Position numbers and translations under genes: made by a program. Positions 34,270 through 39,204 of a DNA stretch of 64,000 nucleotides are shown piece by piece. The stretch is from Bretschneidera sinensis (taxonomy: Eukaryota; Streptophyta; Magnoliopsida; Brassicales; Akaniaceae): contig CM043698.1 of NCBI GenBank assembly GCA_023935145.1, forward strand, positions 142,580,001 to 142,644,000, written 5' to 3'. The notes under the pieces are model-generated. The model was not told where the DNA came from and did no database searches. It saw only the letters and a list, made by a program, of their open reading frames with translations. Every line of letters begins with the position of its first letter. Within the stretch, counting starts at the first letter, position 1.

Positions 34270-34640
34270 GGTCATGTTTGGTAACAGTTTTTAGTGTTTG
34301 AAAACTGTCTTCGAAAAGAGTTTCTGTTTTCAGTGTTCGAAAACATGTTTGGATAACAATGTTCGAAAACTGTTTCCAAAACAGTTTTCAGTGAAATATT
34401 GTTTGGATAATCAGTTTTCGAAAACTGTTTTGAAAATAGAAAACTGTTTGGATTACACTTTTTTGTAATTGTTTTCAGTTTTCAGTGTTCAGTTTAAATT
34501 TTAAGATCTAAAATTAATTTTATTTCTCATATTTACTAAACATAATTTTTTAAGCACACATCAAATACTTGAAAATAATTAATATTATTTTATTTTTAAA
34601 ATGTTAGTATTTTTTATATATCATTGATCAAACATGACAA
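34270..34640. repeat. TIR-rich left end, possibly a stand-alone MITE
   Basis: Starts GGTCATGTTTGGTAACAG and ends with TGATCAAACATGAC, its imperfect reverse complement. In between are repeated fragments of 'cgaaaactgtttccaaaaca' and 'gtttggataa'. Foldback potential is high. Confidence 0.5.
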
Positions 34641-35242
34641 CATTCTTCCCTCATGTTTGTTTGTTAAATAAATTCTTAAAAATAAAACCATCTTATTTTG
34701 AAGAAAGCTTCTCGCTAGATTCAGAATGTTATCTTCATAACTTTTCAAAAAATGTTGCCTTAAGAGTACTGAGAACAGTCGGTTTGCAAGACCTATTAGG
34801 CTATTTACTGATTATGCGTCAAACTTAGGAAAAACAAACTGCTTCTTCACACTAAACTATAATTTCAGAAGCAAAAGGATTCAAATGGAAGAAAAAAAAA
34901 AAGAAATAATGAAACGAAATACAGTAAACAATTGCTTATTTATAACCTCTATGATCACTATGAGTGATTAGAGAATGGAACAAAATTGTTTATAAATGTG
35001 TCTTCACAAGAGGACTGATTAAACAAGGAGAAGCATTACAAACTGAGGGATATAACACATCACACAAAAGAAATCCAAACCCATACTGTACTTGATTCCA
35101 TTACAATTTACAACAGAGGAACCTAGTTACAACAAACAATCAGACCTTATTTTTGCTTGAATGGTCTAACAATGTACAAAATGAATTGCCTTGCAAAAAT
35201 CGATATTGATAAAAAAAAATATGCATAAGAAGCATGCATGTT

Positions 35243-35545
35243 TCAAGACTTTCGAGAAAGTAATGGCTCCAAATGAGGGTTTAGATACTTGGAACCCGAC
35301 TGCACTATATTGCCAGACTCTAAGTGAGCAGTCGATGAATCCTCCTCTCTCTTATTCAATAATATCAGGAAGAAACTTGGTTTATGATCAGGTGACGAAT
35401 ATGACGTTTTAGGAGTTTCATTTAAGCTCTGCCATGCTGAAGACAAACTTGGACAGCATCATGCATTCTCACAAAGTACCACTCTTTGCCAATCAGTTCT
35501 ACCACACCAGATCTTCCTAAGGTCAGCAGAACCTCTCGACTTGGG
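35243..35545 (-). pseudogene. Sulfate transporter (SULTR4-type) C-terminal STAS exon, frameshifted
   Basis: Starts after an acceptor (TTTCCAG at 35546) and reads PSREVLLTLGRSGVVELIGK, then EWYFVRMHDAVQVCLQH. This is the end of the STAS domain of plant SULTR4-group (vacuolar/plastid) sulfate transporters. At about 35438-35445 the frame is lost and meets a stop; the adjacent frame carries the family-like tail SLNETPKTSY..HLEPLLSRKS to a stop at 35243. A single-base loss explains both halves. The membrane part of the transporter is absent from the window. This is a captured or orphan 3' exon, not a working gene. Confidence 0.8.
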
Positions 35546-36321
35546 CTGGAAATTGCAAGTTGCAATGAGAAAACAACAAAAGGCATATATTATTCCTGCA
35601 GTCTCAAAGAAACAAACAGCTAATAGAGATTACAGCAAAAGGTATAAATGCTAAAAGAAATATGTCGACTGAATGAGGATAACTGAGATGACGAGTAGAG
35701 AAAGATGAAAAGATAAAAACAAACAGAACTTGAGAAGAAGAGAGATCGGTAATTGATGCTTCCAAATCTAGAAAAGACCAACATGCATGGCCTTATCATT
35801 AACCCTTTTCACGAGTCTCAAAATCATTATTTCTGGAGCAGACACATAATGCACACAACAGAAAGATGAATGAGACCTTCAACCATGGAGGAAAGAGGGA
35901 AGTTATGAGCAACTAGAGTACGTGGGAAGGTTTTCCTTGAAAGAGGCAAAGAATGTCACCAGAAGAACATAGGAAGATGAGGAAGCATCTAGCATTTTTC
36001 CAAACACACAAGAAGAATTCACTGCTTGCATGTGAGAAATAGGTACCAGGAAGCATCAATGACTGAATTTTTTTTAAGTGCCCTATAAGTTCACCTACAC
36101 ATGTTATCACCTATTCAGTTAACAATCCATTTTCATGGCTTCTAAAACAATGGCAGCATGGCCAAACTATTATGATAAATGATGAGTTGTTTAAATAACT
36201 GTGCAAGTAAGGAATTTGAAATATAAGTGCCTTATGAAACAGGAGAACTTTCAAACTTAATTGTACAAAAGATATATATGCCTGCTTTGAAATAACAAAT
36301 TCATTGGTAGTATACACATAC

Positions 36322-37224
36322 CAGAAAAGCATATGATTTTACCAATGGCTTGGCTAGCTGCCAAATTGGCTTAAATACAAATGGAACATCCACAAAGAGG
36401 ACTTCACCCAACCGTTTCGGATAGTAATAGTATAATACATCAAACTGGAAAAAAAAAGGCAAATTAACTCCAAATGTCCGTAGTACAATGCTAAGGCAAG
36501 TGGGCTACAGCAGTCATGTCTCCAAGGGTAATTATGAATGCTAAATTTATCAAATGTGATTTCAGGTGATAGAACAATATGAAAAGTAAGTAAACTTCTG
36601 CTATGCAAATATAAAATAATCCAAGTATTTATCAATAGCAGCAATAAATGAGTAGCATTCATGGTTTATGTCAAATAAACTTCAAAGCAATCTGGAAATA
36701 CTACAAAATGCATTTAATTCTATAGATTTGTAACATTGACAAACCTGAACAATATCACTTTAACTAAATTGACTACTAGCGGAAGTAGCAGCAATATCAC
36801 ATGCCTGGCCGCAATGGTATAGTTTATTAAGAATTGAGGAAATATGCAAACAATTGAAAAACAAATGCATATATACCATGGTGTTCAATTTTCATAATGA
36901 TCAAAAAATTGAACTAGTGAAAATGAAACACATCAGTATAAATTGATGCTTTCATTTAAAGAAAGAAACAAAGAACTTTAACTAAGCCAGGTAATTTTGT
37001 AATTGTGTAATGCCAGCCATGGAAGTAAGATAAAAAGAGTAAGAAAACAATAACACATCTTCCAACTATTCAGTTAAAAATAAGCAGTTAAATTAAAATT
37101 ACCAGAAAGGTTAAGAATTTAATATCTGCATTCTCAGTACCAAATCCCCAGAGATAAATTATTCCAAGTATTTTTTCTTTTCCAGCTGAAAGTTTTCTCA
37201 GCACCTTCTCAATCAAAAGGGATA
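36322..37224 (-). pseudogene. CRAL-TRIO (Sec14-like) domain gene fragment, two exons
   Basis: Exon A is about 37224-37103 (KVLRKLSAGKEKILGIIYLW, then GFGTENADIKFLTFL) and exon B is 36444-36322 (FDVLYYYYPKRLGEVLFVDV, then PFVFKPIWQLAKPLVKSYAF). Both have intact GT and AG borders and share phase 0 at their junction. They correspond to the core of the CRAL-TRIO lipid-binding domain of plant Sec14-like proteins. The family's N-terminal part and last exon were not found nearby, so this is a fragment. It lies upstream of and co-oriented with the SULTR4 exon at 35.2-35.5 kb, so one transcript could join both. Confidence 0.75.
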
Positions 37225-38186
37225 CTGAACCAAAAGAAGTTTTCTCAACCAAAATCATCCAATTTCTTAACATTTCAAAATGGTTACTCGAACAGCTCAA
37301 ACAGATATTAAAGTCAACATTCAAATCTGATCAAATAAAGAGGAAATAGATAATTGAAATTGTGTATGCCCATTTGTTGGCTTCAAAGCTGAAATAACAA
37401 CATTAGATTTTTAATGCACGACAGAAACAACAGTGAAAATCAGATGGGCATACAAAAAGATTCAGCTATTGCCTACTAAAGCCAGTTAAAAACCACAAAA
37501 TCAGAGCAGAAAGTAAGGCTTTCACTGCCACAAAGAACATCAATGGTTTACACAATGGCAGTGGTTGAAAGTATATTTCCACGTTAGCCTAATTCTAACG
37601 ATCCCAATTCGGTCAAACACATTTATCTCCGAAATCTCACCACGTCAGCATCATCAGTCACAAAATTGTTTGAACCCACACCACTTGATGGGTCATATTT
37701 AGCAGAGTAGCTATACTAAAAAATGCAACCACATATAAATTATAAACTCCCAATCTGCACTATTTTTTTCCAAACAAACTAAGTGATTTTTGCACAGTTG
37801 AAAACTGATAATTTGACTAGAACCAATCATTTGCACACAGGAGCAGAAACTTTCCATTGTCAAGCAAGGACTAAAATTACCAGTCAAACAAAGACGGAGA
37901 TAAAACTCGTACATGCTAACATATAACTGCATAAAACCCTTTAAACATTGAACCCTAATTAAACTGAGTAACTCCTACAACTCCCAAAAATTGTGAAATT
38001 TGATGCAAAGCTTAGTGATCAAATTTACTAAATTTGGTATAAATCAATAACAATTGAACGTGCACATGCAAATGTGCAAATGCAGGCATACATGACAAAT
38101 CACCCAGAAAGTAGAAAGAAAATACCCAGAAGAGGGATTGTGGCAAAATTTGATCCTCCTTTGAGCCCTTATTTACAATCTCTGCA

Positions 38187-38650
38187 TTACTTTAATTCAA
38201 AACCCAAGAAAATTAACTACCTAGCGAAGAAACAAGATTTCTTTAATTTTCTAGCATTTCTCAGCAAGAAAAGAAAGAAAAAAAGAGAAAAGAACAGAAA
38301 GTAGGAAATACCTAGAAGAGGGAAACTGAAGAGCGCGTTACGAGAAAAGAGATGGCTGCTTCTGTGTCTCCTGCTGCCACCAGATCCTCCTCGCTCCAGT
38401 TATGCTCCTGTTTTCTCTTCCTCACTTCTCTCCATTGCCTAGCGTTTCTTGATTAAATAAAGTTGGTTTCAGTGGCTAAACAATGTTTCTTACTTTAATT
38501 CAAAATCCAAGAAAATTAACTACGCAGCGAAGAAACAAGACTTCTTAAATTTTCTAGCATTTTCCCAGCAAGAAAAGAAAGAGAAAAGAACAGAAAGTAG
38601 AAAATACCCAGAAGAGGGAAACTGAAGAGTGTGTTGCTTGAAAAGAGAAG
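38187..38650. repeat. Direct duplication of ~162 bp with ~140-bp spacer
   Basis: Copies at 38187-38351 and 38490-38650 share 'ttactttaattcaaaa.cca', 'ttaactac..agcgaagaaa' and 'gaagagggaaactgaagag'. On the minus strand each carries TTCCCTCTTCT(A/G)G followed by GTATTT, a plausible exon end plus donor. Both lie in the proposed TIR element upstream of the captured exons. Confidence 0.75.
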
Positions 38651-39204
38651 TGCGAGAGAGTAACTCCTTGGATTTAAGAGAGAAGTCATTAGAGGAATGC
38701 AGTTTGGCCAATTCGGAGATATGAGTATCTTTTTTTTCTGGGATTTGAACTGAGGTAAGGTTGTTTGGGAAGTAGGAAAATGAGAAAAAAATTTCTCTCA
38801 TCTCTTATGGGTTTCTTCGAGCTCGTCACCGTCGCGATTTGTTGAAGAGGAAAGGAGTGAGACACGGTTAGAAAGTGAAAAGAAAGGAAATAGGGAGAGA
38901 GAATATGAAGGCGTTGCAGAGAGAAGGAGAGCTCTGTGAAGGAGAAAGTGAGGTTGCGAGAAAGAGAGAAGAGGTCTGTGATTTGGGAAAGTGAGAGTGA
39001 AAATTGAACACTGAATTCAGCCCGAAAACACTGTTTAGTAGTGTTCAAAAATCAGTGTTTGAACGACCATTTTTACAACACTCTGTTCAAACACTGGTTT
39101 TGAACACTGCTGGCCAAACAATCACGCCAGTGTTTGAGCAGCATTTTCAGTGTTTAAACACTGAAAAGGGTTTTTGAAAACCCTCCCCAAACATGGGCTT
39201 AAAT

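Follow-up and report, generated by a model that had tools for sequence, protein, structure and literature searches.

How pieces of unrelated genes came to lie side by side between inverted repeats is the question raised by a locus in a 64,000-nucleotide stretch of the Bretschneidera sinensis genome (contig CM043698.1, positions 142,580,001 to 142,644,000; hereafter the window, located on C2). An earlier note on this DNA had read positions 34270–39199 as a candidate Pack-TIR element (TIR, terminal inverted repeat) carrying exons of two genes. The locus was found to be one discrete element, 4,929 bp long, at 34270–39198; the left end proposed earlier is exact, but the right end is 39198. We conclude with high confidence that it is a Pack-TYPE, non-autonomous transposon of the PIF/Harbinger superfamily, which probably collected its cargo stepwise by repair inside the element.

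The element starts with GGTCATGTTTGG and ends with CCAAACATGGGC, and copies of the triplet TTA, read from the sequence as a target duplication, flank it at 34267–34269 and 39199–39201. The left terminal block (34270–34687, plus strand), which spans 418 bp and is common to the relatives described below, contains the terminal GGTCATGTTTGG and subterminal repeats, and the right terminal block (38713–39198, plus strand) comprises about 490 bp with subterminal repeats and the inverted terminus CCAAACATGGGC. The inverted ends noticed earlier were recovered as CATGTTTGG from 34273 and its complement at the right end. A scan of the 64-kb window for CAGTGTTYRAAAAC-like repeats, allowing one mismatch, likewise recovered the subterminal repeats, on the plus strand at 34292, 34331, 34357, 34412 and 39148 and on the minus strand at 34414, 39096 and 39150. 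The sole other repeats of this kind in the window form a cluster at 15338–15415; the region 15338–15642, which contains this cluster and partial matches to the left block (81–87%), probably represents a further relative of the element family that is shorter or decayed.

Each end recurs in the genome at 40 or more places. The left end (34270–34500) matches all 40 scored places, with 1718 first-look candidates, and the right end (38960–39198) matches all 40, with 663 first-look candidates; these counts are lower bounds and in both cases include the window. The end matches are thus not due to chance. A second full-length copy, L009, was found on C1 at 153.5 Mb (L009 positions 838–5235). It has both ends, its flanks are unrelated to those of the window and its flanking triplets are CAA and TAA. 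Across 4,299 aligned bases, identity between the window copy and L009 is 95.1% (Kimura two-parameter (K2P) distance 0.051), and L009 has large deletions corresponding to window 36321–36371 and 36971–37537. Therefore, the element has moved as a unit. A third copy, L033 on C211, has lost its left end. Next to the second copy, the region L009:5300–6250 contains a gene-like stretch, presumably a caffeic acid O-methyltransferase gene.

The wider family was sampled by taking 20 left-end copies, each with 10 kb of inward sequence. Both ends were present in 17 of them (the right end being degenerate in L016), and no right end lay within 10 kb of the left end in L015, L019 and L029. Together with the window, L009 and a sister element, L032, this gives 20 elements with both ends, about 3.6–9.3 kb apart, whose interiors form several lineages, many of them with little common sequence. 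Nineteen of the elements have definable flanks, and their 3-bp target duplications are exact in 13, carry one mismatch in four and do not match in two. When the flank pairs were shuffled 20,000 times, the mean was 2.4 exact duplications and the maximum 9. Two of the largest elements contain long open reading frames (ORFs) which by eye resemble nested copia-type retrotransposons (L012:4850–8485 and L024:4274–8501).

These observations bear on the simplest alternative, namely that two independent miniature inverted-repeat transposable elements (MITEs) happen to flank decayed genes. Each terminal block is indeed common on its own, and the subterminal repeats resemble MITE ends. Against this, the two ends occur together in 20 loci, the whole unit recurs in L009 with its ends in register and unrelated flanks, and the target duplications pair across the unit far above the level of shuffled pairs. 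Moreover, MITEs are short and without captured genes, whereas this element has 4,929 bp and gene pieces. Chance flanking by two MITEs is therefore vanishingly improbable. Pack-MULEs, which belong to the Mutator superfamily, also carry host gene pieces between terminal repeats, but their target duplications are of about 9 bp. That of the window element is of 3 bp, and the 9 bases before 34270 (GACAATTTA) differ from those after 39198 (TTAAATTCT).

Regarding the superfamily, the terminal repeats are of a GG-C-TGTTTGG type (GGTCATGTTTGG and CCAAACATGGGC in the window, GGGCATGTTTGG and CAAACAAGCCC in most relatives listed), which we take to be PIF-like, and the 3-bp target duplication, TTA on both sides in the window, corresponds to the mainly TTA or TAA duplications of PIF/Harbinger elements. 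In addition, the same-ended relatives L025 and L027 encode DDE_Tnp_4 (3.8e-7 and 1.4e-10 in L025; 6.9e-5, below the Pfam cut-off, in L027) and Myb_DNA-bind_3 (4.2e-21 and 3e-22), which places the family in PIF/Harbinger; L023 is 92.9% identical to L027 over 3.8 kb. In the window element no transposase was found among the seven ORFs scanned, and CRAL_TRIO was the only domain above the cut-off. Compared with L025, the interior showed no match beyond a common segment of 165 bp.

The cargo was copied from host genes elsewhere in the genome, as is characteristic of Pack-TYPE elements. A piece of a SULTR4 gene, consisting of its 3′ end and downstream flank, occupies 34688–35646 on the minus strand (weakly aligned from 34683 and clearly from 34853), and includes a match to Sulfate transporter 4.1 at 35422–35589 (E=1.6e-17). 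It is 83% similar to locus L030 on C7 (28.9 Mb) and 92% similar to the sister element L032. Adjoining it is a 1.58-kb piece of a CRAL-TRIO gene with exons and introns (35641–37218, minus strand), in which PF00650 was detected at 36301–36504 (E=1.1e-7). This piece is 95.3% similar to the source-like locus L031 on C1 (156.83 Mb); a locus on C4 is 88% similar. L031 has additional CRAL-TRIO pieces beyond the part that was captured, and the 5 kb read there contained no terminal block of the element family. The source-like loci on C1 and C7, with the window on C2, exclude the reading of the cargo as decayed neighbouring genes. The Pack-TIR assignment of the earlier note is thus supported by the ends, the unit copies and the paired duplications found here, and it withstood both of the explanations named there against it, syntenic parental genes and separate MITEs.

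Two genes are, however, too few sources for the whole interior. Two further stretches of cargo had gone unnoticed in the earlier note. The segment 37249–37992 is common to the sister and other family elements, and part of it (37514–37829) also matches a cluster on C4 (L035). The following segment, 37986–38730, has internal direct repeats (38187–38303 and 38490–38606) and matches a multicopy locus on C3 and C8 (L034). L034 and L035, read over 1.7 and 1.0 kb, respectively, are candidate sources. A locus on C9, L036, was rejected as a proven source of 37271–37992, since the right end of the family adjoins it (C9:4164516); the family right end also lies beside a like locus at C2:119.95 Mb. Two junctions, that of the left block with SULTR4 near 34683 and that at 37986–37992 (AAAAATT), were set aside owing to low complexity or poor alignment.

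The order in which the two gene pieces arrived is revealed by L032. This sister element has both ends and TTA on either side, and contains no CRAL-TRIO sequence; its SULTR4 segment runs uninterrupted through the break site and continues past the position of window 35646 into an upstream STAS exon (PF01740, 3.1e-5; 4.4e-7 to Sulfate transporter 4.1), collinear with L030. The longer SULTR4 segment and the absence of CRAL-TRIO in L032 indicate that the element already carried SULTR4 when it took up the CRAL-TRIO piece in its interior. Among the matches listed, the SULTR4 piece (query 1–947 or nearly so) occurs without CRAL-TRIO at 12 other places, of which L032 is the one read. The distances point the same way: K2P values of the SULTR4 piece to L030 are 0.162 for the window and 0.144 for L032, which makes its capture appear the earlier one, provided that the source is L030 or a locus closely related to it. 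For CRAL-TRIO the distances are nearly equal (L031–window 0.031, L031–L033 0.031, window–L033 0.034), which indicates that amplification came soon after capture.

The junctions of the CRAL-TRIO piece retain details of its entry. At the near junction (35641), the SULTR4 intron is broken at AAAAGG by the CRAL-TRIO sequence, with GG exact and GGTATA facing GGGATA. At the far junction, the 7-nucleotide (nt) sequence ATCAAAA at 37212–37218 is identical in L031, in the intron of L032 and in the window. It is followed by a junction filler (37219–37248), the first 13 nt of which (37219–37231, GGGATACTGAACC) are identical to the SULTR4 intron bases just past the break in L032, while the remaining 17 nt (37232–37248) contain an 11-mer that also occurs 47 bp upstream. 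After GGGATACTGAACC, 871 bp of the L032 sequence are absent from the window and the 17 nt stand in their place. The junction in L033 is the same as that of the window. A pattern of this sort is expected when a break is repaired by copying from a second template, and we infer such a step here.

A different route has been proposed for Pack-PIF and other Pack-TYPE elements, in which two closely inserted elements move as one together with the DNA between them (the Catoni model; PMC8903248). Such a fusion could account for the initial SULTR4 piece; no state preceding that capture was found here. It fits the CRAL-TRIO step poorly, because L032 was already complete with both ends beforehand, the new piece sits inside SULTR4, the source-like locus persists on another chromosome, its 5 kb read being free of terminal blocks, and microhomology and filler mark one junction. 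We therefore regard fusion of neighbouring insertions as unlikely.

Several observations weigh against stepwise capture by repair in a PIF/Harbinger element. The exact microhomology at the near junction is only the 2 nt GG. For the SULTR4 segment, K2P is smaller between the window and L032 (0.050) than between the window and L009 (0.074), whereas an outgroup position of L032 would predict the reverse; copy exchange or poor alignment near 34900 may lie behind this discordance, and the right end gives the expected order (window–L032 0.110, window–L009 0.064). The coding end of L030 looks damaged, and this locus may be a paralogue rather than the actual source of SULTR4. An intact transposase gene was not seen among L023, L025 and L027: their ORFs are in pieces and, with coding parts split over several ORFs, no working autonomous copy is claimed. 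Finally, the exact duplications are TTA or TAA in only 7 of the 13 cases, the other six being ATA (two), AAT, TTG, CTA and TAG, and it is L012 and L014 whose flanks have no matching 3-bp duplication.

Stepwise repair would nevertheless account for the mosaic as follows. Judging from the common ends and the target duplications, a transposase supplied by same-ended relatives would recognise the terminal blocks and move the unit into 3-bp AT-rich targets, and the cargo would be gathered in steps through DNA repair within the element. The 3′ end of a SULTR4 gene was acquired first. A break in the SULTR4 intron would then have been repaired by copying 1.58 kb of CRAL-TRIO sequence from another chromosome, with the 7-nt microhomology and templated filler on one side, and the lineage that captured CRAL-TRIO would also have lost 871 bp of SULTR4. 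The resulting mosaic finally multiplied. The cargo would be a by-product, without a function as protein. The ends, the copies, the target duplications, the related transposase, the cargo sources and the states on either side of the CRAL-TRIO capture are directly observed, while the repair route and the by-product status of the cargo are inferred.

The earlier note had instead suggested a chimeric lipid-binding/STAS transcript, spliced at intact sites. Only the CRAL-TRIO exon at 36322–36444 (minus strand) has both splice sites. The upstream CRAL-TRIO exon (37103–37218, minus strand) retains its donor GT, but it is cut at the capture breakpoint, 37218, and so lacks its own acceptor; in L031 its reading frame continues upstream. 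The terminal SULTR4 exon (35270–35559, minus strand, its coding end being approximate) has AA in place of AG at the acceptor position 35560–35561, together with a 1-base deletion relative to L009 and an early stop. The suggested transcript thus finds no support in the sequence. Since two of the three exons lack intact splice sites and the reading frame of SULTR4 is broken, a functional chimeric protein from the window copy is unlikely on this evidence.

A further reading is a working chimeric gene, whose spliced CRAL-TRIO/SULTR4 transcript would yield a useful protein. In its favour, the two pieces share one orientation, the exon at 36322–36444 has both splice sites, and L009 retains the AG acceptor and a SULTR4 frame open to PLLSRK. 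In L009, though, the upstream CRAL-TRIO exon is gone and the other is incomplete, so that neither full copy, window or L009, has all the parts, and no start codon was found. We consider such a gene very unlikely, and we find no trace in the sequence of either copy of a chimeric protein being preserved.

An ArfGap gene (31122–33859, minus strand; PF01412, 8.9e-15), which we take to be AGD5-like, adjoins the element and has its start codon at 33859. From this codon it is 411 bp to the left end of the element, which is on the upstream side of the gene, and the cargo would be read in the direction of the gene; an effect on it is possible. Elsewhere in the window, the region 43001–52000 forms a block of 45–55% G+C, compared with about 20–41% in the rest.

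Other members of the family also carry host genes. Ten transposase-poor elements (L010, L011, L013, L014, L017, L018, L020, L022, L026 and L028) were scanned for other cargo, and five of them contained a host-gene piece at E ≤1e-5: ankyrin in L010 (7e-12), Serinc (1.4e-8) and a DEG8-like protease (7.5e-9) in L011, Ras/Rab in L018 (3.6e-14; 2.1e-6 to Rab-1A), TPR in L020 (2.2e-6) and PC-Esterase on the plus strand of L026 (1.8e-21). The remaining five gave no match that strong in ORFs of at least 50 amino acids. The cargo region of L011 is complete at six places including itself (95–100%), and its DEG8 stretch is 94% similar to C5:43.24 Mb and 87% to C3:111.44 Mb. L026 seemingly holds two opposed genes, PC-Esterase on the plus strand and a weak LETM1-like exon (E 0.029) on the minus strand.

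By eye, the cargo gave the impression of a minus-strand bias, which we do not claim, PC-Esterase in L026 being a strong plus-strand gene. The sound cases are seven minus (SULTR4, CRAL-TRIO, ankyrin, DEG8, Serinc, Ras and TPR) to one plus (two-sided binomial about 0.07, calculated by hand), with the weak LETM1 match in L026 and HIR in L013, a tentative name with no Pfam or PDB match, excluded from the tally; all cargo ORFs of at least 50 amino acids in the ten elements divide into 92 plus and 97 minus. A broader reading would see the family as exon shuffling on a large scale within one eudicot tree, with hundreds or more PIF/Harbinger elements of 3.6–9.3 kb, separate lineages bearing different host-gene cargo, repeated template-switch captures inside mobile elements, cargo mostly in transposase orientation and a promoter in the right block that could give chimeric RNA. 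This extension is tentative and, on balance, rather doubtful.

Gene-carrying PIF elements are a known kind. Maize and rice have Pack-PIF elements (Gisby and Catoni 2022, PMC8903248). Like them, the window element has PIF/Harbinger ends, 3-bp AT-rich target duplications, no autonomy and host-gene cargo, which as in some Pack-PIF comes from more than one source locus. The worked maize example involves elements of about 402–535 bp, captures of 58–163 bp and fusion of neighbouring insertions (PMC8903248), whereas the window element measures 4.9 kb, its cargo spans several exons and one capture took place later, within an element that already existed. In grapevine, the Pifvine-3 PIF elements contain captured exons and introns (Benjak 2008, PMC2528002). 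They resemble the window element as eudicot PIF elements with additional sequence, up to 3.5 kb long, that several copies share, but retain a transposase region that it has lost, and the passages of that paper drawn on here give neither an order of steps nor repair junctions. For animal Pack-TIR elements, gap-filling and FoSTeST have been put forward, with copying at microhomology (Tan 2021, PMC8277862). Filler from a source left in place, microhomology at the breakpoint and later amplification by transposition are common to both cases, although the hosts there are animals and the main text does not use the term Harbinger. A 2026 review gives the neighbouring-insertion model for plants and allows that another mechanism may exist (PMC13317346). 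In the one literature collection searched, the term Pack-PIF occurred in a single paper, and no report on Bretschneidera and Harbinger together was found.

What this locus adds to the known kind is that the stages before and after one capture are both visible. How transposons pick up genes is still debated between fusion of neighbouring insertions and copying in break repair. Here, one genome holds the pre-capture state (L032), the post-capture state (the window, L009 and L033) and a source-like state (L031), which allows the capture to be read base by base. Further captures can be examined in this way in the several lineages of the family with other cargo, and the host is a eudicot tree rather than a grass.

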